Below are positions 13,160 through 64,000 of a stretch of DNA of 64,000 bases, in pieces; positions within the stretch are counted from its first letter, which is position 1, and every line of letters starts with the position of its first letter. The stretch is taken from the NCBI RefSeq assembly GCF_000010805.1, contig NC_012522.1:4712001-4776000 (forward strand), given 5' to 3'. The position numbers and the translations under genes are program-made. The notes below the pieces were generated by a model. That model was not told the origin of the DNA. It saw nothing but the letters and a program-made list of their open reading frames with translations, and made no database searches. The stretch is from Rhodococcus opacus B4. GTDB taxonomy: Bacteria > Actinomycetota > Actinomycetes > Mycobacteriales > Mycobacteriaceae.

Positions 13160-13201
13160 GTGGAGTACTGAATTAACCGCCCGACGTTGATAAGTACTCA
13201 C
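13160..13201. repeat. dispersed palindromic element, copy A (degenerate) at pucR 3' end
   Basis: Reading the minus strand, GTGAGTACTTATCAAC, the 8-nt loop GTCGGGCG and an imperfect right arm (GTTAATTCAGTACTCCAC) form the same hairpin as at 21271, 33580 and 61672. The TGA in its GTGAG is the stop codon of pucR. This copy is not between convergent genes: it lies between pucR and downstream ald, where it may act as a terminator. Confidence 0.8.
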
Positions 13202-14805
13202 GGGCGCCGGAGGCGCAGGATCAGCATGGCCGTGTGCAGCGACGTCCGGGACTCGGCATCGTCGAGGTCCACACCGAGCAGGCGCTCGATCGTGGCCAGC
13301 TTCGCGTAGAGCGTGGGACGCGAGAGGTGGAGCTTCTTCGCGAGTTCCGTCTTGTTGCCGCCGAGTTCGAGGAAGCTCCGCAGGACGTCGAGGCTGTCGC
13401 CGCCGTGCCGCGCCCGATGCTCCAGCAGGCCGCGCAGTTCGGTCTCGGCGAACGCCTGCACCCGCGGATCGCTCTGGATGAGGGCGAGGAGCCCGCGCAA
13501 CCGGATGTCGGCTGCCCGGTGAAAGGCCTTGTCGTCCGGTGGCAACGACAGCGCGACGTCGGCGATGTGCGCGGATTCCGCCAGGCCGCCCGCGGCATCC
13601 AGCAGACGGGTCGATTCGGGACCGACGCCGATCGTGCAGTGCAGGACGCCGTCGAGTCGGGTGAGTGCAGCGCGGATGGCCCCGCAGAGTTCGGTCAGCG
13701 CGCCGGGTGCGGACGCCGGCGGATGGGACAGGAGCAGGTCGATCTGCCCGGCCCGGGTGTTCGCGGTCAACGCCGTCTGCCGCGACGTCCGGACCGCGTG
13801 ACGCACGGCGTCCAGCATGGTGACTCGGCGTCGCTGGGCCAGAACCTGGTCGGCACTGGCGGTTTCGCTGACACGCACGGTCATCGGCAGGTAGGTCAAG
13901 GCAGGGCGGAGGCCGAGTGCGTGGGCGCGCGCGGTCGCCTCGGCCTCGTCCTGAACCCGTGCGCGGCGGAGTTCGTCGATGAGCCCACTCTGGGCCTGCT
14001 GCTCGAGCGCGGTCCGGTCCTGTTCGACCATGCGGTGCAATGCGAGCGCCTGAGCCGCGCGTTCGAGGGCCATCCGGGCCCGGCCTTCGGCGGCGACGGG
14101 GTACGGGGCGACGAGTCGTCCCCATTCCTGCCGATGGGCGCCGACGGGCGTCGTCGTCCACGATTCGGGGCCGTCGACCGCGGTCTGATGCGACACGGGC
14201 GTCAGCCGCGACCGCCGTTCCCACTCGGCGAGGAGGTCCGCCGCCGCGGTGTCCTGCGCCGCGAACGCCAGCACCTGCCGGTTGAGGTCTTCGAGCACGA
14301 CCGGGGCGCCGAGCATGCCGGCCGCGGCGTCGACGATCTCACCGAGCGACGCCCGCTTCATGCTGAGGTCGGTAAAGACCTCGTGGGCGTGCCGCGCGAA
14401 GGCGACCTCGTCGTACTGCTCCGCGACGATCGACCGGTGCACCGCCTCGGTGACCTCGACGAACTTGATCTGGCGGTGCAGCGCGATCACGGGGAACGAC
14501 AGCCTGTCGGCGGCGCGTGCCACCCCGGCCGGGACGGTATCGACGTGGACGCCCAGTTCGACGACGAGTCCGGCCGCGCCCGCCGCGGCCAGTCCTTCCA
14601 GGTATTCCACGCTCGACGAGTCGTCCGCGAGGGGGTGCCCGGTGGTGAGGACGAGTTCGCCGCCCTGGAGGAGGTTCGACAGGTCGGGCAGATCGCTGAC
14701 GTGCACCCATCGCACCGGCCTGTCCAGTGGTCCGCCGCCGACCACCTCGGGCGTTCCGGCCTGGACTACCGGGAGCGCCAGGATGTCGACGATGGTGGGC
14801 AGCAT
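13198..14805 (-). CDS. PucR family transcriptional regulator
   Basis: A 535-residue regulator. Residues about 8-125 are the PucR sensory domain (LDRPVRWVHVSDLPDLSNLL, GGELVLTTGHPL). The middle contains a GGDEF-like cap typical of the group, and residues about 465-525 form the PucR C-terminal helix-turn-helix (SFLELGGNKTELAKKLHLS, RPTLYAKLATIERLLG). PucR members control purine, amino-acid, GABA or proline breakdown. It diverges from mmsA with a palindrome covering its own ATG, and lies upstream of ald, so control of both sides is likely. Its stop codon is supplied by a dispersed palindromic element. Confidence 0.88.
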   Translation of the reverse strand: MLPTIVDILALPVVQAGTPEVVGGGPLDRPVRWVHVSDLPDLSNLLQGGELVLTTGHPLADDSSSVEYLEGLAAAGAAGLVVELGVHVDTVPAGVARAADRLSFPVIALHRQIKFVEVTEAVHRSIVAEQYDEVAFARHAHEVFTDLSMKRASLGEIVDAAAGMLGAPVVLEDLNRQVLAFAAQDTAAADLLAEWERRSRLTPVSHQTAVDGPESWTTTPVGAHRQEWGRLVAPYPVAAEGRARMALERAAQALALHRMVEQDRTALEQQAQSGLIDELRRARVQDEAEATARAHALGLRPALTYLPMTVRVSETASADQVLAQRRRVTMLDAVRHAVRTSRQTALTANTRAGQIDLLLSHPPASAPGALTELCGAIRAALTRLDGVLHCTIGVGPESTRLLDAAGGLAESAHIADVALSLPPDDKAFHRAADIRLRGLLALIQSDPRVQAFAETELRGLLEHRARHGGDSLDVLRSFLELGGNKTELAKKLHLSRPTLYAKLATIERLLGVDLDDAESRTSLHTAMLILRLRRP

Positions 14806-14820
14806 TTACGCAGTGTAAAT
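14804..14820. promoter_or_regulatory. palindromic operator candidate over the pucR start codon
   Basis: ATTTAC-GCAGT-GTAAAT has perfect 6-bp arms and includes the pucR ATG (14805-14803). It lies in the 137-bp divergent gap between pucR and mmsA. Autoregulation and control of mmsA by PucR are inferred; no second copy was seen. Confidence 0.5.
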
Positions 14821-16451: not shown

Positions 16452-16471
16452 GCAGGAAAGGAACCACGGTC

Positions 16472-17860: not shown

Positions 17861-17899
17861 CACACCCCGTCCGACGACACACCCGTGTCCCGACACTCG

Positions 17900-17945
17900 A
17901 TCCGTCCCGCGGTCAATGGCGCCCGCGGGACGGATCTTTCTCTAT
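17900..17945 (+). terminator. rho-independent terminator after the aminotransferase
   Basis: ATCCGTCCCGCGG (17900-17912) and its perfect complement (17923-17935) form a 13-bp stem with a 10-nt loop, followed by a T-rich tail CTTTCTCTATT. It lies 40 bp past the aminotransferase stop and 45 bp before the glutamate dehydrogenase start. Confidence 0.75.
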
Positions 17946-17989
17946 TCCACGACAACCACTCGGCGCCCGGATCTCAACGGAGAGAATCT

Positions 17990-20900
17990 ATGAGCTCGAT
18001 TACGTCCACGCTCGCCCTGTCCCTGCCGGAAGGCTATGTCGAAGAACGGGACCGGCCGCCGGTCCCCGACGTCGCCATCCTCGACCGACTGACCGCCGAC
18101 GCCTTCGACCTTCACATCGACACCGCCGGGCCCGATGATGGCCCGCAACTCCGGGTCACGCTCTACAGCGGCGGCTCGACCGTGTCGCTCGAGCGGGTGC
18201 TCCGCCTGCTCGGGAGTCTCGACCTCGAGGTCGACGACCAGCGGACGTCGGTGTTCCGACGCGCCGACGGTCTGGTGTGCCGCCTCTACGACTTCCGGGT
18301 GTCCGCGGGGCCGCTCGTCGCGTTCGCGATGGCCGCGGGATCCGTCGAACCCGAGGCCGTCGTGGAAACGTTCCGGGCGATGTGGTCGGGCCGGGCGGAG
18401 GCGGATCGGTTCAACGTGCTGGTGCTCGCCGCCGGCCTGGACTGGCGCGAAGTCGTGCTCCTGCGCGCCTACGCACGCTTTCTGCGGCAGAGTGCTCTGC
18501 CCTACGACCAGGGCCGGATCGAGGCGGTGCTGCTGTCGCGTCCCGAGTTCGCGTCTGCGCTCGTGGATCTGTTCCACGCGCACTTCGATCCGTGCGGGCA
18601 TTCCACCGGCGAGGTCGAAACTCGCCGAGACAGAGTCGAATCACTGCTCGAACAGGTCGAGGGCCTCGACGCCGACCGGATCCTGCGCGCGTACGGAAAT
18701 CTCGTCTCGGCGACGACCCGCACCAACTTCTACCGGGACGGGGCGCTCGGTCCGGCGCGGCCCCAGCTGTCGCTGAAACTCCGCTCCGGCGAGATCGACG
18801 AACTTCCGCGGCCGCGGCCGTTCCACGAGGTCTTCGTGTATTCACCGGACATGGAGGGTGTGCATCTGCGGTACGGACCGGTTTCGCGCGGTGGGCTGCG
18901 CTGGTCCGACCGCCCCGACGACTATCGCACCGAGATCCTCGGACTCGTCAAGGCACAGGCGGTGAAGAACGCCGTGATCGTGCCCGCCGGTGCCAAGGGC
19001 GGTTTCGTCGTGCGTAACCCGTCGTCGACCGGTCAGGACTGCTACCGGCAGTTCATCTCCGGGTTGCTCGACGTCACCGACAACCGTTCGGATACAGGCG
19101 AGTCGGTGCATCCGGACCGTGTCGTGTGCCGGGACGGCGACGACCCCTACCTCGTGGTGGCGGCGGACAAGGGCACAGCCACGTTCTCCGACGCCGCCAA
19201 CGAGGTGGCCCGAAAATACGACTTCTGGCTCGGGGACGCGTTCGCGTCCGGTGGTTCGGTCGGCTACGACCACAAGAAGATGGGCATCACCGCGAAGGGG
19301 GCCTGGGTGAGCGTCACCCGGCATCTGGCCGAACTCGGAATCGATGTCGACGGTGACCCGTTCACGGTGGCGGGGATCGGCGACATGAGTGGCGACGTCT
19401 TCGGCAACGCCATGCTGGCAACGCCGGGGATCGGGCTGGTCGCCGCGTTCGACCACCGGCACATCTTCGTCGACCCCACCCCCGGCCGGGAGCAGGCCTG
19501 GCAGGAACGCCGCCGGCTGTTCGAGCTGCCGAGGTCGTCGTGGGGCGACTACGACCGGACCCTCATCAGTGAAGGCGGCGGTGTCTGGTCGCGGGAGAGC
19601 AAGTCGATTCCGGTGAGCAGTCGGATGCGGGCGGCGCTGGGACTGTCGCCGTCGGTGACGACACTGACGCCGCCGGAGATGATCCGCGCCATCCTCGCCG
19701 CCCCGGTGGATCTGCTGTTCAACGGCGGAGTCGGGACGTACGTCAAGGCCTCCTCGGAGTCGCACACGGACGCGGGGGACAAGGCGAACGACAACGTCCG
19801 GATCGATGCCGGTCTGCTCCGCGCACGGGCCGTCGCCGAGGGCGGCAACCTGGGCATGACCGCGCTCGCCCGCATCGAATTCGCCCGCGCGGGTGGACGC
19901 GTCAACACGGACGCACTGGACAACTCGGCCGGAGTGGACTGCTCCGACCACGAGGTGAACATCAAGATCCTGCTCGATTCCCTGCCGGTCGACCGGCAGC
20001 TCGACCCGGCCCGGCGCTCGGACCTGCTCGGGGCGCTCACCGCCGACGTGTCGGAGCTCGTGCTAGCGAACAATCGCGCGCAGAACCGGGTGCTCGGCGA
20101 CGCCCGGTCGAACGCCCACCGGATGGTGGACGTGCACGCACGGATGGTGAGCGACCTCGTCGACAGGCGCGGTCTGGACTGCGAGCTGGAGGCGCTGCCG
20201 ACAGCCGACGGCTTCGCCGAACTGTCGGAGGCGGGGTTCGGGCTGACGTCGCCCGAACTGGCGACGCTCCTCGCCCACGCCAAGCTGGATCTGAAAGCGG
20301 AACTCGAGGATTCGGACGTCTTCACCGACGGGTATTTCTCCGCTCGGCTCGAGGCGTACTTCCCGGCCGCACTGCGCACCGTCGCCCCCGTCGCCGAACA
20401 TCCTCTCCGCCAGGAGATTCTCGCCACCGAGATCGTGAACGACATCTTTGCGCGCGGCGGGCTCACCTACACGCACCGGCTTCGCGAGGAGACGGGGGCC
20501 GGGACCGCGGATGTGGTGCGCGCGTTCGTCATTACGTCGGAAGTGTTCGGGCTCGCGGAACTCTGGTCCGATATCGCCGCGGCGAAACTGCCGCCGGCGA
20601 CGGAGTACGAATTGGTCGTCGAGGCCCGCAGGTTGCTGGACCGGGCGTCGCGGTGGTTCCTCGCCAACCGGCCCCAGCCGCTGTCGGTGGACGCCGAGAT
20701 CGACGAGTTCCGGCGTGACGTCCACACGCACTCCGGCGACGTCGGCGGATGGCTCCGCGGCGCCGAGGCGCTGGCGATGGAGGAAACGCGCCGGGCCTAC
20801 GACGAGACCGATGTGGAGACGTACATCGCGCGGCGTATCGCGGACGGCCTCTACCGGTTCAGCCTGCTCGACATCGAGGAGGTCGCCCGCGAATTGGGCC

Positions 20901-21256
20901 ACGATGTCGCCGAGGTGGCGCCGCTCTATTTCGCGCTCTCCGACCACCTCGGCGTGGATCGGTGGCTGATCAAGGTGTCGGCGCTTCCTCGGGGTGAACG
21001 CTGGCACACCCTGGCCCGTCTGGCGCTGCGTGACGACCTGTACCGGTCGGTCCGCCTCCTGACCCGGGACGTGTTGTCCTCGGGTGAACCCGGAGATTCG
21101 GCGGATTCCCGGATTCTTCTGTGGGAGAGCACCAACCGGGCCAGGATCGAGCGTGCTCGCAGGACGCTGGGAGAAATCGACGCCGCGCCCATTCACGATC
21201 TGGCCTCGCTGTCGGTCGCAGCTCGCCACGTGCGGTCCATGGCGGAGCCGCACTGA
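17990..21256 (+). CDS. NAD-specific glutamate dehydrogenase, short large-type form
   Basis: A 1088-residue member of the large NAD-glutamate dehydrogenases, deaminating glutamate to 2-oxoglutarate. Catalytic segments are present: RGGLRWSDRPDDYRTE, KNAVIVPAGAKGGFV with the catalytic Lys, GIGDMSGDVFGNAML and LLFNGGVGTYVKAS. Characterised actinobacterial enzymes of this type have about 1,600 residues; here the long N-terminal regulatory region is about 500 residues shorter, while the catalytic and C-terminal parts look whole. ATG 17990 follows AACGGAGAG at good spacing. A terminator precedes the gene and a palindromic element follows it, so it is probably monocistronic. It could regenerate 2-oxoglutarate for nearby transaminases. 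Confidence 0.88.
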   Translation: MSSITSTLALSLPEGYVEERDRPPVPDVAILDRLTADAFDLHIDTAGPDDGPQLRVTLYSGGSTVSLERVLRLLGSLDLEVDDQRTSVFRRADGLVCRLYDFRVSAGPLVAFAMAAGSVEPEAVVETFRAMWSGRAEADRFNVLVLAAGLDWREVVLLRAYARFLRQSALPYDQGRIEAVLLSRPEFASALVDLFHAHFDPCGHSTGEVETRRDRVESLLEQVEGLDADRILRAYGNLVSATTRTNFYRDGALGPARPQLSLKLRSGEIDELPRPRPFHEVFVYSPDMEGVHLRYGPVSRGGLRWSDRPDDYRTEILGLVKAQAVKNAVIVPAGAKGGFVVRNPSSTGQDCYRQFISGLLDVTDNRSDTGESVHPDRVVCRDGDDPYLVVAADKGTATFSDAANEVARKYDFWLGDAFASGGSVGYDHKKMGITAKGAWVSVTRHLAELGIDVDGDPFTVAGIGDMSGDVFGNAMLATPGIGLVAAFDHRHIFVDPTPGREQAWQERRRLFELPRSSWGDYDRTLISEGGGVWSRESKSIPVSSRMRAALGLSPSVTTLTPPEMIRAILAAPVDLLFNGGVGTYVKASSESHTDAGDKANDNVRIDAGLLRARAVAEGGNLGMTALARIEFARAGGRVNTDALDNSAGVDCSDHEVNIKILLDSLPVDRQLDPARRSDLLGALTADVSELVLANNRAQNRVLGDARSNAHRMVDVHARMVSDLVDRRGLDCELEALPTADGFAELSEAGFGLTSPELATLLAHAKLDLKAELEDSDVFTDGYFSARLEAYFPAALRTVAPVAEHPLRQEILATEIVNDIFARGGLTYTHRLREETGAGTADVVRAFVITSEVFGLAELWSDIAAAKLPPATEYELVVEARRLLDRASRWFLANRPQPLSVDAEIDEFRRDVHTHSGDVGGWLRGAEALAMEETRRAYDETDVETYIARRIADGLYRFSLLDIEEVARELGHDVAEVAPLYFALSDHLGVDRWLIKVSALPRGERWHTLARLALRDDLYRSVRLLTRDVLSSGEPGDSADSRILLWESTNRARIERARRTLGEIDAAPIHDLASLSVAARHVRSMAEPH

Positions 21257-21270: not shown

Positions 21271-21320
21271 CGCCCGTGAGTACTTGTTAACCGCCGGCGG
21301 TTAACAAGTACTCACGGGCG
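21271..21320. repeat. dispersed palindromic element, copy B: perfect 50-bp palindrome
   Basis: Every base from 21271 to 21320 pairs: the 25-nt half beginning CGCCCGTGAGTACTTG is followed directly by its reverse complement, with no loop. The 40-bp core corresponds to the elements at 33580 and 61672, but A-T at core position 11 is G-C here on both arms, a compensatory change. It lies between convergent glutamate dehydrogenase and permease genes, and probably acts as a bidirectional terminator. Confidence 0.9.
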
Positions 21321-21330
21321 CGAAGCGCAC

Positions 21331-22809
21331 TTACAGGGTGCGCGCGGGGTCGGCGTCGTCGTCGGGGATGAAGTCGGCCTCGACGGCGGCCGCCGGTTCC
21401 TTCCAGATCCACGGCTGACCGTCCTGGACGACGCGACGGTAGGCATACAGCACGATCGACAGCGACAGAACGACGACGCCGACGATCAGTTCCTTCGTGC
21501 TGCCGTAGCCGGTGATGGACGCGCTGAGGGCACCGACGACGACCATGATCGTGTCGACGACGACGAGGAGGCCGGCGATGTACACCCACTGCTTGCCGAG
21601 CTTGATGGGGCGATGGGCGTCCGGTTCGTCGCGGCGCAGGTTGAGGAAGCCGGTCAGCGACAGGATGTGGCAGATGAGGTAGCCGACGATGCCGGCGACG
21701 ATGACGGCGAGGGCCTCGCCGACGAACAGGATCAGGATGACGTTGACGAGCAGGTCGAGCGACATCGCCCGCCCCGGGACCTTGAAACGGTTGAGTTCGC
21801 CGAGCTGTTTGATGGTGAGGCCTTCGCGGGCGCTGCCGTGGAGTACGCGTCCGCCGTCGGCCGTGGTCATGACCATCAGGAGGACGAGGCCGGCGATGAG
21901 GCAGACCGCCATCACGATGTCGCCGCCGGGGAAGAGGCTCTCGAACACGGTCAGGTAGAAGGAGACGGGGTTCTCGGCGACGTCCGCCTGATCGACGAGT
22001 CCGCCGACGCCGAGCGGGACGAGGATGTAGACGGCGATGACGAAGAAACCGGCCAGTCGCAATGCAATTCGGCTGTCTCGGATGGTGTCGCGGAATTCGG
22101 GCACGAACGAGGCGACGGCCTCGATGCCGTACACCGACCAGGCGAGGACGAACATCCAGGCGATCGCGGTGCGCCAGCCCGCTTCACCGCTGGCGTCGAT
22201 GTCCCAGTGCAGGTTGCTCATCGACCAGTTGTCGGACAGGAGGGGAGCGGCCGCGAAGACGACGATCGGGACGAGGACGAGCGCGCCGGTCGCGTACATC
22301 AGCCACATCGCGGGACGCATGCCCAGGACGTTCAGGCCCCAGCCCATGACCAGGACGCCGAGTGCGATGACGTGGGGTAGTCCGATGGTGGCCAGGCCCG
22401 TGGAGAATGTCCACGTCTGTTCGGGGAACCATTCGGCCTGGACCAGTTTTCCGATCTGCAGGCCGTAGATGGCCAGTGAACTGGACCAGGAGAACCAGTA
22501 GCCGTACGTCGCGAGCGGGCCGACGAGGGTCGACCGGGTTCGCCAGCCTTGATGCGCGTACATCGAGATGCCGCCGACCTTGTCGACGAACATGCTGGCC
22601 ATCTCGGAGTAGATGAAATTCTGGAGGCACGCCAGGACGGCGACGCCGCCGAGGAGGACGAGCGTCGTCCACGCGCCGATCAGGCCGATCGCGTACCCCA
22701 TTCCGACGAACAGTGCGGCGGGGATGGAGAGGCTGATGGTGAAGCCGTCCCACCACCGCAGGTTTTTCTCGTAGGTGTGATCGTCGGCGAAGGAATCGTG
22801 CAGGCTCAC
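21331..22809 (-). CDS. APC family amino acid/polyamine permease
   Basis: A 492-residue inner-membrane transporter with about 12 hydrophobic helices of the APC superfamily. The N-terminal soluble part (HDSFADDHTYEKNLRWWDGFTISLSIP) leads into helix 1 with the substrate-binding GMGYAIG; helix 6 region reads WSVYGIEAVASFVPEFRD, with the Glu typical of amino-acid and amine carriers. GTG 22809 is chosen because GGAG lies 7 nt upstream; an open frame continues further without a ribosome site. It diverges from the Lrp regulator, and an ACGC-AAT-GCGT palindrome lies between, so Lrp control is likely. The substrate may be an amine or omega-amino acid, given the adjacent aminotransferase genes. Confidence 0.87.
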   Translation of the reverse strand: MSLHDSFADDHTYEKNLRWWDGFTISLSIPAALFVGMGYAIGLIGAWTTLVLLGGVAVLACLQNFIYSEMASMFVDKVGGISMYAHQGWRTRSTLVGPLATYGYWFSWSSSLAIYGLQIGKLVQAEWFPEQTWTFSTGLATIGLPHVIALGVLVMGWGLNVLGMRPAMWLMYATGALVLVPIVVFAAAPLLSDNWSMSNLHWDIDASGEAGWRTAIAWMFVLAWSVYGIEAVASFVPEFRDTIRDSRIALRLAGFFVIAVYILVPLGVGGLVDQADVAENPVSFYLTVFESLFPGGDIVMAVCLIAGLVLLMVMTTADGGRVLHGSAREGLTIKQLGELNRFKVPGRAMSLDLLVNVILILFVGEALAVIVAGIVGYLICHILSLTGFLNLRRDEPDAHRPIKLGKQWVYIAGLLVVVDTIMVVVGALSASITGYGSTKELIVGVVVLSLSIVLYAYRRVVQDGQPWIWKEPAAAVEADFIPDDDADPARTL

Positions 22810-22936
22810 GGGAGTTCTCCAGTTCTGGGCCTCGTCGGCGCAGTGTGTGTATTCAGAATGCGGCCCTCGGCGACTCGAGTCGAGTGGATGGATGCCGACG
22901 GACCGCCGCAAGTATGTGATTCAAGACACTAACACC

Positions 22937-22947
22937 ACGCAATGCGT
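22937..22947. promoter_or_regulatory. ACGC-AAT-GCGT palindrome, likely Lrp operator
   Basis: ACGCAATGCGT (extended to CACGCAATGCGTG) lies in the 254-bp gap between the permease and the lrp gene. A related ACGCAAAGCGT lies at 28406 before the hydrolase run, and GTATTGCGT occurs at 22971 and 25163. Lrp-family sites are often such short TTGCG/CGCAA palindromes. Nothing else in this gap stands out. Confidence 0.55.
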
Positions 22948-23051
22948 GACACAAGAGTGGAATGACTCATGTATTGCGTATCTTCTGGACGTTTACATCA
23001 ATGAAATGCAGCATCTTGCCCCCGCAACGCCACTGATCTCGTCGTTCTGGC

Positions 23052-23063
23052 TAGAGTCGATCC
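23052..23063 (+). promoter_or_regulatory. probable leaderless promoter of the Lrp gene
   Basis: TAGAGT at 23052-23057 fits TANNNT and ends 6 nt before ATG 23064; no Shine-Dalgarno sequence is present. Confidence 0.45.
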
Positions 23064-23525
23064 ATGTCACAGCACACACTGGACGAACTGGACCGCGCGA
23101 TCCTGCGGCAACTCGAAGACGACGGGCGGCGAGCGTTCCGGGAGATCGCCCGCAACCTGGGCTCGTCCGAGGCGACGGTGCGGGCGCGCGTGAAGCGCCT
23201 GCAGGATCTGAACATCCTGCGCATCGTCGCGTTCGCCGATCCCGAGCGGTTGGGCGACTCGCAACTCGCTCTCGTCTTCCTGACGGTCGATCCGGACAGG
23301 CACGAGCAGGTGGTGGACGCGCTGACCGAGATGCCGGAGGTCACCTATGTCTCGACCCTGCTGGGGCGCGCCGACATCTGCGTCGAGGTCGGCAGCGCGA
23401 ACAACGCCGAATTGTGGGCATTTCTGAATCAGCACGTCAGCACCATCGAGGGCGTGCGTACCACCGAGACCACCTCGATCCTCAAGGTGCACAAGCTGCG
23501 GTACGGCACGCCCTCGCAGGGGTAG
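23064..23525 (+). CDS. Lrp/AsnC family transcriptional regulator
   Basis: A 153-residue regulator. Residues 4-60 form the winged helix-turn-helix (LDELDRAILRQLEDDGR, FREIARNLGSSEATVRARV), and residues about 70-145 form the RAM/ACT-like effector domain (VDALTEMPEVTYVSTLLGRAD). Lrp proteins assemble into octamers that respond to amino acids. It is divergent from an APC permease and convergent, by 2 bp, with an aldehyde dehydrogenase. Palindromes of the ACGC-N3-GCGT type in the region suggest local control of amine or amino-acid breakdown genes. Confidence 0.92.
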   Translation: MSQHTLDELDRAILRQLEDDGRRAFREIARNLGSSEATVRARVKRLQDLNILRIVAFADPERLGDSQLALVFLTVDPDRHEQVVDALTEMPEVTYVSTLLGRADICVEVGSANNAELWAFLNQHVSTIEGVRTTETTSILKVHKLRYGTPSQG

Positions 23526-23527
23526 TC

Positions 23528-25054
23528 CTACTGTCCGGCGCGGAACACCGTGCGGTGCCAGTCTTTTCGTGACACGCCGGAGATGTCGCTCATGACGTGC
23601 TTGACGGTGAGGTACTCCTCGAACGAGTACGTCGACATGTCCTTGCCGAATCCGGACGCACCGACCCCGCCGTGCGGCATCTCGCTGATGATCGGGATGT
23701 GATCGTTGATCCATACACAACCCGCGGCGATGTCCCGTGATGCGCGCTGCGCACGGTACAGGTTCGTCGTCCACGCCGATGCTGCGAGACCGTAGTCGGT
23801 GTCGTTCGCGCGGCGGATCGCGTCGTCGTCGCCCGAGTGCCGGCTGACGGTGAGCACCGGGCCGAACACCTCGTCGCGGTAGATCTCCGCGTCCTCGGTG
23901 ACATCGGCGATCAGGGTCGGCAGGTAGAACGCTCCGGGCAGATCGGGCGCGGATCCACCCGTCACGATCCGGAAACCGGCGGCCCGGGCGCGCTGCACCA
24001 TGCCGTCGACCCGGTCGCGATGGGCGAGCGTGATCAGCGATCCGAGGTCGGTGCCGGGGTCGTGCGGATCGCCCACGACCACCCGTTCCATCAATTCGGC
24101 CACGCCGGCGACGAAGTCGTCGTACAACGAGTCCGCCACGATCGCGCGGGTCGCCGCGGTGCAGTCCTGGCCGCCGTTGATCAGCGACGCCGCCACCGCG
24201 CCGTGTACGGCCGCGTCGAGATCGGCATCGTCGAACACGACGAACGGGGCCTTGCCGCCCAGTTCCAGCTGGACGCGGGTGCCGTTCACGGCCGCCTGCG
24301 CCATCACCGTCCGGCCCACGGCGGTCGATCCGGTGAACGTCAGGACGTCGATTCCGCGATGGCCGGCGAGTGCCGCACCGACCTCGGCGCCCGTGCCCGT
24401 GACCACGTTGAACACGCCGTCGGGCAGGCCGGATTCGGTGGCCAGCCGGGCGAGCCGCAGCGTCGTGAGCGGGGTGAGCTCGCTCGGTTTGAGTACGACC
24501 GTGCATCCGGCGGCCAGTGCCGGAATCACCTTCCATACCGCCATCTGCAGCGGATAGTTCCACGGCGTGATCGACCCGACGACGCCGACGGCCTCGCGGC
24601 GGATGCTCGACGTGTGGTCGGGGGAGTACTCCGCCGACGCCTTGCCCTCGAGATTGCGCGAGGCTCCGGCGAAGAAGTCGATGTTGTCGATGCTTCCCGG
24701 GACGTCGAACTCGCGAGCGAGCCGAATTGCCTTGCCGGTCTGCGCTACTTCCTCACGGGCGAACAGTTCCGCGTCGCGTTCGAGTGCGCGGGCGAGGGTG
24801 GTGAGCACTGCGGCGCGCTCGGACGGTGCCACCCCCGACCAGCCTGGGAAGGCTGTACGCGCGGCGTGGACGGCGGCATCGACGTCCGACGCACTCGCCA
24901 GGGTCAGCGTCGTGACGGCCGCGCCCGTCGCCGGATCGACGATGCGGTGGACGGCGCCGGAGCCCTCGGCTGGGGATCCGGAGATCCAGCAGCCGGGCAC
25001 GGTGGTCGGCACGTCGATCGCGGTAGAGGGTGGGAAAGAAGCAGAGACGGTCAT
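23528..25054 (-). CDS. gamma-aminobutyraldehyde-type dehydrogenase
   Basis: A 508-residue NAD-dependent aldehyde dehydrogenase. Landmarks are GSITPWNYPLQMAVWK, FTGSTAVGRTVM, QLELGGKAPFVVFDDADLD with the catalytic Glu, and NGGQDCTAATR with the catalytic Cys. The NGGQDCTA wording is typical of PatD-like gamma-aminobutyraldehyde dehydrogenases in putrescine breakdown, less so of betaine aldehyde dehydrogenase. The upstream open frame is ignored: ATG 25054 has GGAG 8 nt before it. Divergent from a class III aminotransferase at 25342 that could supply the aminoaldehyde. A 287-bp gap between them carries a GCGTATTGCGT sequence (25161-25171). Confidence 0.85.
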   Translation of the reverse strand: MTVSASFPPSTAIDVPTTVPGCWISGSPAEGSGAVHRIVDPATGAAVTTLTLASASDVDAAVHAARTAFPGWSGVAPSERAAVLTTLARALERDAELFAREEVAQTGKAIRLAREFDVPGSIDNIDFFAGASRNLEGKASAEYSPDHTSSIRREAVGVVGSITPWNYPLQMAVWKVIPALAAGCTVVLKPSELTPLTTLRLARLATESGLPDGVFNVVTGTGAEVGAALAGHRGIDVLTFTGSTAVGRTVMAQAAVNGTRVQLELGGKAPFVVFDDADLDAAVHGAVAASLINGGQDCTAATRAIVADSLYDDFVAGVAELMERVVVGDPHDPGTDLGSLITLAHRDRVDGMVQRARAAGFRIVTGGSAPDLPGAFYLPTLIADVTEDAEIYRDEVFGPVLTVSRHSGDDDAIRRANDTDYGLAASAWTTNLYRAQRASRDIAAGCVWINDHIPIISEMPHGGVGASGFGKDMSTYSFEEYLTVKHVMSDISGVSRKDWHRTVFRAGQ

Positions 25055-25160
25055 GAGGTCACTCCAAGACGGGGGCGAAAAGATGCACTCACAGTAGAGA
25101 AGCGATCCGGCGTTGGCTACCGCACGCCGCGAATTTGGCAGCACTTTCGCGAAGATTTCC

Positions 25161-25171
25161 GCGTATTGCGT
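25161..25171. promoter_or_regulatory. GCGTATTGCGT, possible Lrp half-site
   Basis: It shares GTATTGCGT with a sequence at 22971 beside the lrp gene and resembles the ACGCAAT palindrome at 22937 in reverse. It lies in the divergent gap between the aldehyde dehydrogenase and the aminotransferase. Only weakly palindromic, so low confidence; I see nothing else in this 287-bp gap. Confidence 0.3.
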
Positions 25172-25341
25172 CAAGAATTCCGCTTCAACTACTTGAATTC
25201 GCAGACTTCAGCCGTCATGATCGACGCATGCCGGATCGAACCTCGGAGTTCGAAGATCTGCCGAGGCGATCATCCCGAGTTCGGTCGATAGAGCCGGACC
25301 GGGCCGAACTCGACTGAACCGAAACATAATTGAGGACTACG

Positions 25342-26724
25342 ATGACTGCAGTCACCGAACAACCCGCGGAAACCGGACTCGAGCGCTCGGCTTCGCGCCA
25401 CTTGTGGGGTCATTTCTCCCGGCACGGGGAGAACATCACCCCGCCGATCATCACCCGCGGCGAGGGTGCCCGGATCTTCGACGCGTCCGGTAAGAGCTAC
25501 CTCGACGGACTGTCCGGGCTGTTCGTCGTCCAGGCCGGACACGGCCGCACCGAGCTCGCCGAGGCCGCCGCCAAACAGGCCGAACAACTCGCCTTCTTCC
25601 CGCTCTGGTCCTACGCCACCGAACCGGCCATCGAACTCGCCGAACGCCTCGCCGGCTACGCCCCCGGCGACCTGAACCGGGTCTTCTTCACCACCGGCGG
25701 CGGCGAGGCCGTCGAAAGCGCCTGGAAACTGGCCAAACAGTACTTCAAGAAGGTCGGCAAACCCGGCAAACACAAGGTCATCTCCCGCTCCATCGCCTAC
25801 CACGGCACCCCCCAAGGCGCCCTCGCCATCACCGGGATCCCCGCCCTGAAGGCCCCGTTCGAACCGCTCACCCCCGGCGCGTTCCGGGTCCCCAACACCA
25901 ACCTCTACCGCGCCCCCGCACCGCTCGGCTCCGACCCGGAGGCGTTCGGGATCTGGGCCGCCGACCGGATCGCCGAGGCCATCGAATTCGAGGGCCCCGA
26001 CACCGTCGCCGCCGTCTTCCTCGAACCCGTCCAGAACGCCGGCGGCTGCTTCCCACCGCCGCCCGGCTACTTCGAGAGGGTCCGGCAGATCTGCGACGAC
26101 TACGACGTGCTGCTCGTCTCGGACGAGGTGATCTGCGCGTTCGGGCGGATCGGGTCGATGTTCGCGTGCGACGACTTCGGGTACGTCCCCGACATCATCA
26201 CCTGCGCCAAGGGCCTGACCTCCGGGTATTCGCCGATCGGGGCGATGATCGCCTCCGACCGGTTGTTCGAACCGTTCGCCGACGGGCAGTCGATGTTCGC
26301 GCACGGCTACACCTTCGGCGGCCACCCCGTCTCCGCGGCGGTCGCGCTGGCGAACCTGGACATCTTCGAACGCGAAGGCCTCAACGCCCACGTGGCCGAG
26401 CAGGCGCCGGCATTCCGGGCCACCCTCGACAAGCTCACCGACCTGCCGATGGTCGGCGACGTGCGCGGCGAAGGCTTCTTCTACGGCATCGAACTGGTCA
26501 AGGACAAGGCCACCAAGGAAACGTTCACCGACGCCGAGGCCGAACGGATCCTGCACGGGTTCCTCTCCACCGCCCTGTTCGACGCCGGCCTGTACTGCCG
26601 GGCCGACGACCGCGGCGACCCGGTCATCCAGCTCGCACCCCCACTGATCTGCGGGCAGACCGAATTCGACGAAATCGAATCCATCCTGCGCAGCGTCCTC
26701 ACCGAAGCCTGGACCCTGCTGTAA
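25342..26724 (+). CDS. class III aminotransferase (putrescine/diamine-pyruvate type)
   Basis: A 460-residue PLP enzyme. Motifs are SRSIAYHGTPQGALAITG, FLEPVQNAGGCFPPP, LLVSDEVICAFGRIG and the PLP Lys in DIITCAKGLTSGYSP. The SRHLWGHFSRH start and overall wording resemble diamine or omega-amino acid:pyruvate transaminases such as SpuC. With the divergent aminobutyraldehyde dehydrogenase it would take a diamine to the amino acid. ATG 25342 is set by GAGGA 6 nt upstream. A strong terminator follows within 25 bp, separating it from the next permease. Codon wobble is unusually C/G-rich even for this window, suggesting high expression. Confidence 0.86.
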   Translation: MTAVTEQPAETGLERSASRHLWGHFSRHGENITPPIITRGEGARIFDASGKSYLDGLSGLFVVQAGHGRTELAEAAAKQAEQLAFFPLWSYATEPAIELAERLAGYAPGDLNRVFFTTGGGEAVESAWKLAKQYFKKVGKPGKHKVISRSIAYHGTPQGALAITGIPALKAPFEPLTPGAFRVPNTNLYRAPAPLGSDPEAFGIWAADRIAEAIEFEGPDTVAAVFLEPVQNAGGCFPPPPGYFERVRQICDDYDVLLVSDEVICAFGRIGSMFACDDFGYVPDIITCAKGLTSGYSPIGAMIASDRLFEPFADGQSMFAHGYTFGGHPVSAAVALANLDIFEREGLNAHVAEQAPAFRATLDKLTDLPMVGDVRGEGFFYGIELVKDKATKETFTDAEAERILHGFLSTALFDAGLYCRADDRGDPVIQLAPPLICGQTEFDEIESILRSVLTEAWTLL

Positions 26725-26746
26725 CGCAACCGGTCCCACGCCGGAA

Positions 26747-26790
26747 GGCGGCACCTCGACAACGGCGTCGAGGTGCCGCCTTTCTGTTTT
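26747..26790 (+). terminator. rho-independent terminator after the aminotransferase
   Basis: GGCGGCACCTCGAC (26747-26760) pairs perfectly with 26767-26780 around a 6-nt loop, then TTTCTGTTTT follows. A 14-bp GC-rich stem with a T tail is a textbook intrinsic terminator. Confidence 0.88.
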
Positions 26791-26839
26791 GCGGTGCGCC
26801 GCACGGCGCATCGACCCTTCTCACGAGAACGGCAGATAC

Positions 26840-28333
26840 ATGACTCCGCACTCCTCTGTGCCCGAGAACGGCGGCGCAGGCCCTGACGCGAGTCCGCATC
26901 CCTTGAACAGCGGACTGGGTGTCGGCGCCATCGTCTTCATGGTGGTGGCCGCCGCGGCGCCGCTCGCCGTCGTCGCCGCGCAGGTGCCCATCGTCATGGC
27001 GTTCGGTGGCAGCATCGGCGCGCCGCTGTTCTTCCTCGTCGCCGCCGTCATCCTCACCTTGTTCGCTGTCGGATACACGCTCATGAGCAGGCACGTCCGC
27101 AACGCGGGGGCGTTCTACTCGTACGTGCAGGCCGGGCTCGGACGGGTGAACGGGCTGGGTGCCGCGTTGCTGGCGCTCGTGTCGTACGCCATGCTCCTCA
27201 TCGCCGTCTACTCCTATCAGGGTGTGGCGGCGAGCAACGCCGCCGCGCATTACCTGCACGTGGACGTCCCCTGGTGGGTGTTCTCGTTCGTGGCTTTCGG
27301 GATCGTCTCCGTGCTCGGGTACCGCGACATCGAACTCAGTTCCAAGATCCTCGGAGTGCTCCTGATCGCGGAGGCACTCATCGTCGTCGTGCTCGATCTC
27401 GCGATCCTCGTCAAGGGTGGCGCCGCCGGACTGACCGCCGCGCCGCTGCTGCCGGCCACGGTGTTCGACGGCTCTCCCGGACTGGGGCTGATGTTCGCGT
27501 TCTTTGCATTCTTCGGGTTCGAGGCGACGGCGGTGTTTCGGAACGAGGCGCGAGACCCCGACCGCACGATTCCGCGGGCGACGTATGTCGCGGTGGTGTC
27601 GATCGGTGCGTTCTATGCGCTGTCCGCGTGGGCCGTCGTCGTCGGAGCCGGCGTCACCGATGCCGTGGGCACGGCGTCGGACGACCCCGTGAACATGGTG
27701 TTCGACCTCGCCACGCGGTATGCCGGAACGGTCGTGCACGACATCATGCAGCTTCTCGTCGTGACCAGCGTCTTCGCGTGCGTGCTGTCGTTCCACAACG
27801 TCATCACGCGGTATCAGTTCACGCTCGGCTCGATGGGAGTGCTGCCGTCGGCGCTCGGCCGGGTCAATGTGAAGTACGGCGCGCCCTCGCGCTCGTCGCT
27901 CGTCCTGACCTCGATCTCCGGAGTGCTGCTCGCGGTGGTGGCGGTCAGCGGCATCGATCCGATCACCCAGGCGTACACGTGGCTGTCCGGTGCGGCCACG
28001 CTCGGGATCGTTCTGCTCATGGCGCTCACCAACCTGGCCGTCATCGTGTTCTTCCGCAGGCGCGATCTCGACAAGCGCCGGTGGAACACGGTCGTGGCGC
28101 CGACTTCGGCGATCGTCGGTCTGCTCGCGGTCGTTGCTCTCGTCGTCACCAACTTCGAGTTGCTCATCGGAGATCGGCTCGGCGCGTGGGTCATCGGGAG
28201 CCTGGTGGCATCAGCCTACGTCGCCGGGGTTGTCGTCGCCCTGCGGATGCGGCGGTCCCGCCCAGCGGTGTATGCGGCGCTCGAGGCGGGCGAACCTGGT
28301 GGGGTGACGCTGCGCAATGCGCAGCAGGGCTGA
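26840..28333 (+). CDS. APC family amino acid/amine permease
   Basis: A 497-residue inner-membrane transporter with about 12 hydrophobic helices. The helix 1 region reads VFMVVAAAAPLAVVAAQVP and the helix 6 region FAFFGFEATAVFRNEARDP, both typical of APC carriers of actinobacteria; a basic C-terminal tail follows. It differs strongly from the permease at 21331, so the pair probably imports different substrates or different parts of one compound. It follows the aminotransferase past a terminator and lies 165 bp before the hydrolase-oxygenase run. Confidence 0.85.
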   Translation: MTPHSSVPENGGAGPDASPHPLNSGLGVGAIVFMVVAAAAPLAVVAAQVPIVMAFGGSIGAPLFFLVAAVILTLFAVGYTLMSRHVRNAGAFYSYVQAGLGRVNGLGAALLALVSYAMLLIAVYSYQGVAASNAAAHYLHVDVPWWVFSFVAFGIVSVLGYRDIELSSKILGVLLIAEALIVVVLDLAILVKGGAAGLTAAPLLPATVFDGSPGLGLMFAFFAFFGFEATAVFRNEARDPDRTIPRATYVAVVSIGAFYALSAWAVVVGAGVTDAVGTASDDPVNMVFDLATRYAGTVVHDIMQLLVVTSVFACVLSFHNVITRYQFTLGSMGVLPSALGRVNVKYGAPSRSSLVLTSISGVLLAVVAVSGIDPITQAYTWLSGAATLGIVLLMALTNLAVIVFFRRRDLDKRRWNTVVAPTSAIVGLLAVVALVVTNFELLIGDRLGAWVIGSLVASAYVAGVVVALRMRRSRPAVYAALEAGEPGGVTLRNAQQG

Positions 28334-28340
28334 CTGGATC

Positions 28341-28385
28341 CGCGCAAATGTCTAGGGTTTCTGGGGTTGTGTGACGGTTTGCGCG
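28341..28385. promoter_or_regulatory. inverted repeat CGCGCAAA / TTTGCGCG before the hydrolase run
   Basis: Perfect 8-bp arms at 28341-28348 and 28378-28385, 29 bp apart. Too open for a terminator; it may be a paired half-site. GATAAT at 28388-28393 follows and could be a -10 box for the 28499 operon. Confidence 0.3.
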
Positions 28386-28405
28386 CTGATAATGTGGCCC
28401 TCAAC

Positions 28406-28416
28406 ACGCAAAGCGT
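28406..28416. promoter_or_regulatory. ACGC-AAA-GCGT palindrome upstream of the hydrolase-oxygenase run
   Basis: ACGCAAAGCGT matches the ACGCAATGCGT palindrome at 22937 except for the central triplet. It lies 83 bp before the TTG start at 28499, suggesting that the same Lrp regulator acts on this run. Confidence 0.5.
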
Positions 28417-28498
28417 TGAATCAATGCCTATTGGATGACGAAATGCGCAGCATCGAGTCGTACCCGCCGCCGGAGCGGCGCAAACAGAGGAGCGTGTC

Positions 28499-31604: not shown

Positions 31605-31623
31605 ACTCCCAGAAAGGACTATC

Positions 31624-33583: not shown

Positions 33584-33619
33584 GTACTTATTAACGTCGG
33601 GCGGTTAATAAGTACTCAC
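33580..33619. repeat. dispersed palindromic element, copy C
   Basis: GTGAGTACTTATTAAC and its exact complement form 16-bp arms around the loop GTCGGGCG. It fills the 21-bp gap and both gene ends between the convergent reductase and pxpB: the reductase TGA (33581-33583) and the pxpB TAA (33607-33605) are both inside. The right flank continues GGGCGCGAAGCGCA as at 21316. A role as bidirectional terminator is likely. Confidence 0.9.
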
Positions 33620-57166: not shown

Positions 57167-57217
57167 GGACGAACGGGACGCCGGTTGCGTCAGATCGAAC
57201 GAGCGTCCCGTTCGTCC
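57167..57217. terminator. long-stem inverted repeat between convergent genes
   Basis: GGACGAACGGGACGC (57167-57181) and its perfect complement (57203-57217) flank a 21-nt loop in the 69-bp gap between the exporter permease and the MocA-like gene. There is no U-tract, but position and 15-bp arms suggest a bidirectional terminator. It is unrelated to the palindromic element found elsewhere in the window. Confidence 0.6.
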
Positions 57218-57223
57218 GAGAAG

Positions 57224-59756: not shown

Positions 59757-59793
59757 GACTCGAGGTTACGTCCTTTCCACACGACTTATGAGC

Positions 59794-61223: not shown

Positions 61224-61700
61224 ATGACCGTCACCAGCGCTGGAGTGCTCCTGTATCGCTTCGACGATGCGGGGGTGCTCCAGCTGTGGATCGTGCACAT
61301 GGGCGGCCCGTTCTGGGCGCGTAAGGACGAGGCCGCGTGGTCGATCCCCAAGGGCATCTACGTCGAGGGGGAGGATCCCTTCGCGGCAGCGCTGCGCGAG
61401 TACGAGGAAGAGATCGGTGCACCGCCGCCGGACGTCGAGTATCACCTGCTCGGACAATTCAAGCAGCCGTCCCGCAAGCTGATCACCGTCTACCTGGCGG
61501 AGGCGAAGGACGACGTCACCTTCGTCGGGAGCAACACCTTCGAACTGGAGTGGCCGCCGCGGTCGGGGAAGTTTCAGCAGTTCCCCGAGGTCGACGACGC
61601 CCGCTGGTTCCCGGTGAGCGTCGCCGAGACGAAACTGGTCAAGGGCCAGCGCCCGATTGTGCTTCGCACCCGTGAGTACTTATTAACGTCGGGCGGTTAA
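61224..61700 (+). CDS. NUDIX hydrolase
   Basis: A 158-residue small hydrolase of nucleoside-diphosphate derivatives. The NUDIX box is complete: GIYVEGEDPFAAALREYEEE followed by IG, with the Gx5Ex7REUxEE pattern. The N terminus VTSAGVLLYRF and WSIPKG match the group that hydrolyses dinucleoside polyphosphates or nucleotides. It lies 9 bp after ndh. The last nine residues, REYLLTSGG, and the TAA stop are encoded by the palindromic element at 61672, so the natural C terminus probably was a few residues different. Confidence 0.9.
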   Translation: MTVTSAGVLLYRFDDAGVLQLWIVHMGGPFWARKDEAAWSIPKGIYVEGEDPFAAALREYEEEIGAPPPDVEYHLLGQFKQPSRKLITVYLAEAKDDVTFVGSNTFELEWPPRSGKFQQFPEVDDARWFPVSVAETKLVKGQRPIVLRTREYLLTSGG

Positions 61701-61711
61701 TAAGTACTCAC
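61672..61711. repeat. dispersed palindromic element, copy D
   Basis: The 40-bp core is identical to copy C at 33580: 16-bp perfect arms (GTGAGTACTTATTAAC) around GTCGGGCG; three more flanking pairs extend it to 61669-61714. It carries the TAA of the NUDIX gene and the TGA of the convergent molybdenum hydroxylase gene. The identity of copies C and D over 40 bp, 28 kb apart, shows active spread or gene conversion. Confidence 0.92.
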
Positions 61712-64000
61712 GGGGGCGAAGCGCATCGCCAGACGGCGGCGGGGGTCATCGGGAGGCTGCGGAGCCGGGCGCCCGTTGCGTCCGCGATGGCGTTGGCCAG
61801 GGCCGGCGCGACCGGGTTGTACGGGGATTCGCTCATCGACTTGGCGCCGTGCGGACCCAGCTCGTCGTAGGTGTCCGCGAAATAGACCTCGGTGTCCGGG
61901 ACGTCCACGAGCTGCGGGATGTGATAGTTCCGCAGCTGCGGGTTGAGCACGGTCCCGGCTCCGTCGAGCAGGATCTCCTCGTACAGCGCGCTGCCGATCG
62001 CCTGTGCCACGCCGCCCTCGACCTGCCCGCGGCACTGCTGCGGGTTGAGGACCGTGCCGGCATCCGCCGCCTGGATGGACTGCAGGATCCGGACCTCCCC
62101 GGTGACGGTGTCGACCGCGACCCGGAAGGCGTGCACGTTGAAGACCACCGACCGCGGGGTGCCGTCGTGGTGCCCCTCCGCGCGGAGCGGTCCCTCGGGC
62201 ACCAGCTTGTCGAGTTCGACGGTTCGCCCGGCGACCTCGACGGCGTCGGGTGTCAGCGCGCAGTCGCTGTCCTCGGCGGCGCCCGCGACGCGGCGAGCGA
62301 CCTCGAACAGCTGCTCCCGCAACCGGGTTCCGGCGAGATGTACCGCCTTTCCGGCGACGACCGTGCCTGCCGAGCCGAACGCTCCGGTGTCATGGTCGGC
62401 GACGTCGGTGTCGGATTGGATCACGGTGATCCGGTCGGCGGTGGTGCCCAGCGCGGACGCGGCGAGCTGCGCGTGGACGGTGGTGGTGCCGTTGCCGAAC
62501 TCGGCGGTGCCCACCCGAAGTTCGTACCGGCCGCCCTCGACGAGGGTGCAGGACACGTCCGCGAAGTGCCCCCGCGGCGGAATGGTCGCGATCATGGACG
62601 CCGCCATGCCCTCGCCGACCCGCCACTGCGGCCCGTCCGGCGGGTGCACGTCGTTGCCGCGGCGCAAAGCAGCCTCCGCGAGGTCGAGGCACTGGTCGAG
62701 TCCGTAACTGCCGTAAGTGAGGTCGCCGTGCTCCACCTCGAAGTCGACGAAGTCGTCACCCGGCACGACGACGTTGCGGCGACGCAACTCGAACGGATCG
62801 ATCCCCAGCTCCGCGGCCAGTTGGTCGAGCGCGGACTCCACCGCGAAGATGATCTGGCCCAGACCGTAACCGCGGAACGCCCCGGACGGCAGGTTGTTGG
62901 TGTAGACGGCCTGGGCATCCACCCGCTTGTTCGGCGACCGGTACAGCGCAACGGATTCGCTGCAGCCGTGGAACATCACCCCCACCGAGTGATTGCCGTA
63001 GGCTCCGGCGTCCGAGAGCACGTCGACGGCGAGCGCGGTCAGCTTTCCGTCGCCGCCGGCCCCGACCTTCACCGAGACCCGCATGGGATGCCGGCACGGT
63101 GCGATCGTGAACTGGTCGGAGCGGGTGAATTCATACTGCACCGGTCGGCCGGTGCGCAGCACGGCGAGGGCGACGAGATCCTCGACCAGCATCTCCTGCT
63201 TCGCGCCGAAGCCACCCCCGACGCGGGCCGTGAACACCCGGACCTGTGCGCGGTCGAGGGAGAACAGGTGAGCGAGTTCGTCGCGGACGAGAAAGGGCAC
63301 CTGGGTGCTGCTGCGGAGGGTGAGCCGCCCGTCGGAGTCGAGCCAGCCGATGGCCGAATGGGTTTCGAGGTGGGTGTGCTGCACGCGTTGTGTCTGCCAC
63401 GTGCCCTCGACCACCGCGCCGGTGTCCCGTGCCGCCGCGAGTCCGGCCGCGAGGTCACCGACCTCGCCGTGCACCTCGGCCACCAGGTTCCGGGCCGGAT
63501 CCGCGATCCGGGACTCGGCGCCCTTGTCGCCGTGCAGCAGGGGTGCACCGGGGCGGCGCGCCAGGTCGGGGTCGAAGACCGGTTCGAGGACCTCGTACTC
63601 CGCCTCGATCAGTTCCACTGCGCGCCGGGCGATGTCGACCGAGTCGGCGACGACGGCCGCGACGCGCTGCCCCCGGAACCGCAGGATGGTGTCGAACACG
63701 TAGGTGTCGTCGGGGTCGTCGGTACGGAATTCGTGGCGGGCCGTGGAGTAGGCCACGTCGGGACTGTCGCGGTGGGTGAGCACCGCGTGGACGCCGGGCA
63801 GTCGCTCTGCGGCGGACGTGTCGAGGCGGGTGATGCGGGCGTGCGGATGCGGGCTGCCGAGGATCTGGATGTGCGTCAGCCCGTCGACGGCGAGGTCGAG
63901 CGTGTAGGGTTCGGCGCCGCACACCACGCGCGTGGCGGCAGGAGCGGGAATGGAACGGCCGAACGACCTACCAACACTGTCTGATTCGGTGGTGCAGACG
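61708..64000 (-). CDS. xanthine dehydrogenase family molybdenum-binding subunit (5' end beyond window)
   Basis: At least 763 residues of a molybdenum hydroxylase large subunit. The reading frame is open to the window edge. It holds the Mo-cofactor motifs VRVFTARVGGGFGAKQEML, SGAFRGYGLGQ, GTAEFGNGTTTVHAQ and FGSAGTVVAGKAVHLAG; the catalytic Glu probably is in GAKSMSESPYNPVAPA. Such enzymes hydroxylate purines, N-heterocycles or aldehydes. Whether a [2Fe-2S] domain is fused upstream cannot be seen: the sequence at the edge reads VGRSFGRSIPAP, a typical start of the Mo subunit. No FAD subunit is in the window. Its stop codon is in the palindromic element at 61672. Confidence 0.88.
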   Translation of the reverse strand, partial: VCTTESDSVGRSFGRSIPAPAATRVVCGAEPYTLDLAVDGLTHIQILGSPHPHARITRLDTSAAERLPGVHAVLTHRDSPDVAYSTARHEFRTDDPDDTYVFDTILRFRGQRVAAVVADSVDIARRAVELIEAEYEVLEPVFDPDLARRPGAPLLHGDKGAESRIADPARNLVAEVHGEVGDLAAGLAAARDTGAVVEGTWQTQRVQHTHLETHSAIGWLDSDGRLTLRSSTQVPFLVRDELAHLFSLDRAQVRVFTARVGGGFGAKQEMLVEDLVALAVLRTGRPVQYEFTRSDQFTIAPCRHPMRVSVKVGAGGDGKLTALAVDVLSDAGAYGNHSVGVMFHGCSESVALYRSPNKRVDAQAVYTNNLPSGAFRGYGLGQIIFAVESALDQLAAELGIDPFELRRRNVVVPGDDFVDFEVEHGDLTYGSYGLDQCLDLAEAALRRGNDVHPPDGPQWRVGEGMAASMIATIPPRGHFADVSCTLVEGGRYELRVGTAEFGNGTTTVHAQLAASALGTTADRITVIQSDTDVADHDTGAFGSAGTVVAGKAVHLAGTRLREQLFEVARRVAGAAEDSDCALTPDAVEVAGRTVELDKLVPEGPLRAEGHHDGTPRSVVFNVHAFRVAVDTVTGEVRILQSIQAADAGTVLNPQQCRGQVEGGVAQAIGSALYEEILLDGAGTVLNPQLRNYHIPQLVDVPDTEVYFADTYDELGPHGAKSMSESPYNPVAPALANAIADATGARLRSLPMTPAAVWRCASPP

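Follow-up and report, generated by a model that had tools for sequence, protein, structure and literature searches.

Palindromes at gene ends of Rhodococcus opacus B4 and related species: a family of putative bidirectional terminators or insulators

Repetitive extragenic palindromes and bacterial interspersed mosaic elements (REP/BIME), which accompany REP-associated tyrosine transposases (RAYT), are short intergenic palindromes that occur in many copies and serve as targets for insertion sequences. Recombination sites are organised differently (11-6-11 for Xer/dif and 13-8-13 for lox), and terminators devoid of a U-tract have been reported in actinobacteria. The SlmA site of Escherichia coli is a compact 12-bp palindrome, GTGAGTACTCAC, which occurs mainly in coding regions (PMC3116907). 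This study deals with a palindrome family recognised in a stretch of 64,000 nucleotides of the Rhodococcus opacus B4 chromosome (assembly GCF_000010805.1, contig NC_012522.1, positions 4,712,001 to 4,776,000), hereafter the window, where four copies lie at 13160-13201 (copy 1), 21271-21320 (copy 2), 33580-33619 (copy 3) and 61672-61711 (copy 4).

A role of this family at gene ends is supported by the results presented below, and its elements, judging from their sequence, likely stop transcription arriving from both sides. With moderate confidence, we favour the reading that they form a family of bidirectional terminators or insulators, the letters of which would be held by a putative clade-specific factor.

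Size, anatomy and placement of the family

The initial annotation had described four dispersed palindromes at gene 3' ends, all of which were recovered. They belong to a family whose members, according to a whole-genome search, number about 92 on the 7.9-Mb chromosome (contig C5), and tabulation of the flanking genes showed that their placement is not random. With 3 mismatches tolerated, the window contains seven matches to the half-site GTGAGTACTTRTTAAC, whereas 100 shuffles gave 0.01 on average. At the level of the whole genome, 191 occurrences were recorded with up to 2 mismatches versus 3 for the reversed control. Exact half-sites (T and C forms together) marked 93 places; in 69, the second arm is exact as well and offset by 24 bp. 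Since two of these places are halves of one insertion-split element, the total amounts to about 92, a figure that under-counts elements without any exact half-site.

The core consists of GTGAGTACTTVTYAAC, then 8 nt, then the reverse complement. Its statistics were drawn from 88 intact copies, five damaged places being excluded (C5:4178392, 4725162, 4900441, 4904606 and 5471465). The arm consensus reads GTGAGTACTT-V-T-Y-AAC, followed by CG or GT, C, and C or G. On each side, 85 or more of the 88 copies agree with the consensus at positions 1-10, 12, 15 and 16. Position 11 was G, A or C (T occurred once in 176 arms), position 13 was T or C, and position 14 was A, with G in 10 of 176 arms. Arm pairing is favoured but not required, since the two arms matched in 54 of 88 copies at position 11 (39 expected, p 0.00015) and in 54 of 88 at position 13 (46 expected, p 0.06). 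Neither G17 in both halves (0/88, p 0.002) nor a GC centre (0/88, p 1e-9) was encountered, two avoidances for which simple pairing does not account. That most arm letters hardly vary, and that the half-sites keep a constant distance of 24 bp, points to sequence-specific recognition.

Elements were tightly attached to stop codons. The 93 places comprised 46 convergent, 40 tandem and 6 divergent junctions as well as one in-frame copy; by comparison, the 54 neighbouring gene pairs of the window comprised 13 convergent, 28 tandem and 13 divergent ones. Leaving the in-frame copy aside, convergent junctions were in excess (46/92 versus 13/54, p 0.003) and divergent ones in deficit (6/92 versus 13/54, p 0.004), the count of six being an upper bound because it includes copy 1, which is really tandem. 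A stop codon occurred within 25 bp of 83 of the 86 convergent or tandem elements and inside the core of 61 of them. Core position 4, where GTGAGT supplies a TGA, accounted for 50 of 132 flanking 3' ends and position 15 for another 17, and tandem copies were closer to the end of the upstream gene than to the next start in 35 of 40 cases. The in-frame copy (L183, C5:5188486) lies within a long open frame resembling a non-ribosomal peptide synthetase (NRPS), two paralogues of which are without a copy.

Many cores are bordered by small hairpins rich in GC, the loops of which consist of three bases (GGA, GAA), as at 61658-61671 and 61712-61725 of the window. Hairpins with a stem of at least 4 bp were found in 33% of 186 element flanks versus 12% of shuffled flanks, and the GC-rich ones differ between orthologues.

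The whole 40-bp core (up to 3 mismatches) was found in 11 of the 28 genomes of the genus, against none for the control in all 28. These carriers held 100 (G024), 93, 92, 91, 85, 85, 78, 61 (G012), 51 (a genome that is 74% complete), 38 and 6 cores. Among the matches listed, they belong to R. wratislaviensis, R. koreensis, R. opacus, R. jostii and a Rhodococcus metagenome-assembled genome. Near half-sites occurred in 13 of 61 relatives, all Rhodococcus, i.e. the same 11 carriers and two genomes with one match each. In R. opacus B4, exact half-sites were spread from 0.50 to 7.28 Mb of the chromosome contig and none was found on the other contigs; among the inexact matches listed, one lies on another contig. 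A single match, at 88% identity, came from 72,556 plasmid records and none from 50,697 phage records, so that a phage or plasmid origin was rejected.

This restriction of exact half-sites to the chromosome would also suit protein-bound sites of chromosome architecture or nucleoid occlusion, similar to those of SlmA, for which gene ends would merely be harmless spots. The arms share GTGAGTACT with the SlmA site as given in PMC3116907. Elements are sparse around dnaA (C5:3776668) as well, with 4 of the 92 in C5:2.85-4.12 Mb, a region picked after looking, and 7 within 0.5 Mb of dnaA versus 13.6 expected (p 0.03). However, sites of this kind do not need tight attachment to stop codons, that source places SlmA sites mostly within coding regions, and the low density near dnaA is a weak signal. 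Nor did asymmetric loops display any orientation bias between the two chromosome arms, which also led us to discard a signal of replication polarity. An architectural function is thus considered unlikely.

As to the four window copies, copies 3 and 4 are 40-bp cores without a single difference between them, as had been reported, and each contains the stop codons of both neighbours. These are a 2Fe-2S oxidoreductase gene (32630-33583, plus strand) and a carboxyltransferase-domain (CT_C_D) gene (33605-34228, minus strand) for copy 3, and a NUDIX gene (61224-61700, plus strand) and a molybdopterin-dependent dehydrogenase gene (61708-63927, minus strand) for copy 4, which is further enclosed by an outer inverted repeat (61658-61725). 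Copy 2 is a perfect palindrome with 25-bp arms (core 21276-21315) and a loop of its own, CGCCGGCG. A NAD-glutamate dehydrogenase (GDH) gene (17885-21256, plus strand) ends 15 bp ahead of it and an amino-acid permease gene (21331-22911, minus strand) ends just past it. Copy 1, on the minus strand, lies behind a PucR-family regulator gene (13198-14805, minus strand), the 3' end of which falls inside the copy, and is followed in tandem by an alanine dehydrogenase gene (11877-13043, minus strand) whose start lies beyond. Its left arm is degenerate (GTGGAGTACTGAATTAAC), and its right arm (13186-13201) is a half-site with 1 mismatch.

Further details of the initial annotation held as well: copies 2-4 lie between convergent genes, both neighbours of copy 1 being on the minus strand; the loop GTCGGGCG is common to three copies, copy 1 having it on the minus strand; two copies share the right flank GGGCGCGAAGCGCA, and a third nearly does; and no transposase was encountered among the eight flanking genes, all typed with Pfam (0/8). 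Predicted folding of copies 2-4 was more stable than that of shuffles on each strand (z -5.1 to -13.1), and these three copies would place a stable hairpin right after the stop on both strands, as intrinsic terminators do. The minus strand of copy 1 folded no better than shuffles (z -1.0). No Rfam 15 RNA family scored above its gathering score within the window. An unrelated 20-bp imperfect inverted repeat between convergent genes, perhaps an ordinary terminator, was observed at 57167-57217.

Inheritance in place and conservation of letters

DNA searches for the junctions of the four copies covered eight close relatives (G001, G005, G015, G018, G019, G023, G024 and G026), some queries including the element and others the flank only (flank-only queries cover two junctions). 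The element was present, whether intact, mutated, split or recombined, at 26 of 27 informative junctions: 8/8 for copy 3, 7/7 for copy 4 (including one split by an insertion, in G018), 5/6 for copy 2 (four filled and one recombined) and 6/6 for copy 1 (five intact and one interrupted, in G001). One recombined element of G018 was scored at copy 2 and also at copy 3. The lone exception was copy 2 in G024: the two flanking genes are the same there, but the hairpin separating them (stem of 21 bp) is unrelated, and a 14-base piece of it was found at this locus alone among the 342 loci compared. Counted outside the 27 were outgroups G012 and G020, G005 (a short match of 65%) and G019 (72%, without element) at copy 2, G005 (a 48-base match) and G019 (an 87% match short of the gene end, as well as an element-free homologue of 76%) at copy 1, and G026 (matched only by an element elsewhere) at copy 4. 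Outgroup G012 displayed copy 3 with intact arms despite a flank identity of 78%. At the same junction, G020 perhaps retains a decayed trace made of two 3-mismatch half-sites, a mismatch level at which the control is about equally frequent. Copy 4 was absent from the ten other genomes of the genus.

When the 135 elements in named loci were compared with those of R. opacus B4, 99 proved syntenic on both sides, 24 on one side and 12 on neither. Over all loci compared, 350 two-sided pairs were filled and 33 unfilled, the latter consisting of decayed or indel-bearing copies (G019, G020 and one in R. opacus B4 itself), an insertion-split copy and NRPS paralogues (65-72% identity). None of these 383 pairs, the loci of which were partly chosen by motif, showed a clean empty site flanked by a target duplication; empty sites are under-sampled since most loci were fetched for holding the motif.

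This fidelity bears on an origin as non-autonomous repeats mobilised by a transposase, either REP/RAYT or miniature inverted-repeat transposable elements (MITE). The elements are indeed dispersed, palindromic, intergenic and present in about 90 copies, and insertion sequences land in them. Yet the 350 filled pairs and the lack of a clean empty site, with the sampling just mentioned, do not suit mobility. Moreover, Y1_Tnp (PF01797) occurred in 7 of 15 genomes and was absent not only from G019 and G020 but also from the carriers G012 and G024; a REP/RAYT assignment fails because these two carriers lack it. Mobilisation is therefore regarded as most improbable. The initial annotation had hesitated between a REP- or MITE-like family and a domesticated bidirectional terminator; the first proposal found no support, and the second is the one best supported by the anatomy. 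A mobile gene carried between close element pairs was also considered and set aside: in five pairs, the genes looked ordinary by eye and no transposase was seen, although no family search was made. One close pair (C5:5660697 and 5661330) encloses a PfpI-like gene.

Orthologous copies were compared in 88 pairs kept out of 105 (short flank matches were dropped), representing 56 elements of R. opacus B4. Differences reached about 17% at third codon positions and 0.6% at constant core positions, a low value that is partly ascertained because named loci were found via the motif. The variable positions behaved otherwise, with differences of 47 and 42% at position 11, 38 and 32% at position 13, and 38 and 35% at the centre. 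They already differed by about 24% in the 16 pairs whose flanks were 95-99.9% identical. Orthologues nevertheless shared 7.1 of 10 variable positions versus 5.9 for random copies.

Two relatives departed from this conservation. G019 is 89-91% identical at copies 3 and 4 and has 49 exact half-sites. Of its 42 elements in which at least one arm is exact, 7 have both arms exact, versus 69 of 93 places in R. opacus B4 (p 4e-10), and half-site spacings of 22-28 bp occur in this genome. G020 contained at least 18 half-site pairs (each with up to 3 mismatches) 22-26 bp apart, several of which carry an identical change in both arms. We read this decay as a lost constraint on letters with pairing partly retained, as loss of a recognising factor would give, although other causes are possible.

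Such mirrored changes may alternatively reflect plain hairpin terminators that spread anciently from a single source. No dedicated factor would then be involved, because copying from one arm to the other (template switching) and from copy to copy would maintain the letters. For inverted repeats, such switching is described as homogenising the arms and inverting the spacers (PMC8604942). In agreement with this, position-11 changes were mirrored in both arms of 16 of the 88 orthologue pairs versus 8.8 after shuffling, and the composition of position 13 depends on the species (p 0.0008), to which the G020 pairs above may be added. On the other hand, exact spacer inversion was not enriched overall (22 of 121 loop changes, p 0.19; 5 of 18 in the closest pairs, p 0.05) and is unsupported as a driver of loop change across all pairs. 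Copying alone also leaves unexplained why positions 11 and 13 vary beside constant neighbours, why T is nearly excluded from position 11, and why the composition of this position is alike across species (p 0.41). We retain this explanation as a possibility, well behind a factor-held terminator or insulator.

Synteny breaks and insertions at the elements

Synteny was examined in 113 of the 120 named loci (at least 7 kb). Breaks occurred at element junctions in 21 of 99 comparisons and at other junctions in 19 of 343 (p 1e-5), and, for convergent junctions only, in 12 of 46 versus 2 of 42 (p 0.008); these counts are biased by the fact that contigs were chosen for holding elements. The other genome likewise displayed an element at the break in 24 of the 25 breaks listed, reciprocal comparisons included. 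One case concerns the window region itself: G018 (L218, L326) is without the 12.3-kb block between copies 2 and 3 (21271-33619) and retains a single hybrid element, in which the left flank of one copy is joined to the right flank of the other copy. In R. jostii (L038, 777-3393), two elements enclose a block of about 2.5 kb where R. koreensis has a single element (L093, about 6812).

These observations would be expected from recombination sites of lox or dif type (16-8-16), with gene blocks bounded by two elements being gained or lost. Homologous recombination between repeats of 40-70 bp would give the same outcome, however, and about 90 active sites should scramble the chromosome, whereas 99 of the 135 elements were syntenic on both sides. 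Together with the selection bias of the break counts, this makes dedicated recombination sites a very doubtful explanation.

Insertions within elements have ends unlike those of the elements themselves. Three of about 1.8 kb were found in the 8-base loops of G018 elements (L253, L254 and L255), with 4-base duplications read by eye, and the one that was typed encodes DUF772 and DDE transposase domains. In R. opacus B4, a 4.1-kb insertion with ATTAAC at both ends (L252, C5:4900441-4904606) splits an element and encodes a reverse transcriptase/maturase of group II intron type. The copy-1 orthologue of G001 is split at TTAA by an insertion of about 1.2 kb (L333, 2650-3850).

Proposed role and comparison with known systems

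A terminator or insulator fits these data because of the placement at stop codons, the hairpins predicted on both strands and the replacement of copy 2 in G024 by an unrelated hairpin. RNA transcribed from either neighbour would fold into a hairpin of at least 16 bp that either spans the stop codon or follows it directly. A factor recognising the sequence, in the simplest case a DNA-binding protein, would contact both half-sites and help to block RNA polymerase, although recognition of RNA rather than duplex DNA is also possible. This factor would be clade-specific, and lost or altered in G019 and G020.

Several points weigh against this proposal. A U-tract is lacking, with at least 5 T per 8-nt window in only 3 of 186 flanks. 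Position-11 pairing is broken in 34 of 88 copies (25 if G-T is allowed), which would not be expected of a plain hairpin. Beside the right-hand gene, copy 4 is missing from outgroups G012 and G020, and the divergent GDH (72%) and PucR (76%) homologues of G019 are without element. The placement counts rest on home-made gene calls, one of which was wrong in the window (the PucR gene was missed and a Pfam search corrected it). The data show the number of copies, their placement at stop codons and inheritance in place, the constraint on particular positions, the decay in two genomes and the predicted stability of the hairpins; from these we infer both the end of transcription at the elements and the existence of the factor.

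A broader and clearly more tentative version would make the family a factor-dependent punctuation: one clade-specific protein would bind the roughly 90 palindromes, insulate neighbouring genes from each other's transcription and, at these very sites, render gene blocks exchangeable, its loss leading to decay. If true, sites and factor would form a natural knock-out series, loss being proposed for G019 and G020. A hairpin at a gene end would normally be expected to conserve its shape and not its letters, whereas here the letters are near-exact at about 90 sites, mostly at the same junctions in several species, with a few positions changing very fast. This conservation, together with the decay, means that a hidden Rhodococcus factor for sequence-specific termination or insulation can be tested for directly. 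Biotechnology makes use of the R. opacus/jostii group, and a compact two-way insulator would be of value there.

No description of this palindrome family was found among the open-access papers listed, which is no proof of absence. The text of the motif does occur in one paper (PMC6921075), as part of a reverse primer targeting alkU of R. jostii RHA1, and the passages concerned make no comment on it.

Among known systems, the SlmA sites of E. coli resemble the family by their number (about 50-100 palindromic chromosomal sites) and by the outer nine letters, GTGAGTACT, a likeness that is a lead only. Their compactness is not matched, as the Rhodococcus half-sites lie 24 bp apart and at stop codons. 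Xer/dif and lox sites share inverted arms around a short spacer as well as gene blocks, bounded by sites, that are gained or lost. The Rhodococcus elements differ from them by their 16-8-16 layout and stop-codon placement, and no recombinase was identified, none having been searched for. Like REP/BIME, they are short, palindromic, intergenic, multicopy and targeted by insertion sequences, but two carriers are devoid of a RAYT-type gene, the elements are inherited in place and their copies are far fewer. With intrinsic bidirectional terminators they have in common a location at gene 3' ends and between convergent genes, as well as a predicted stable hairpin that could serve both strands; they differ by the lack of a U-tract, by a fixed spacing and by the retention of letters, in addition to pairing, across about 90 copies and several species.

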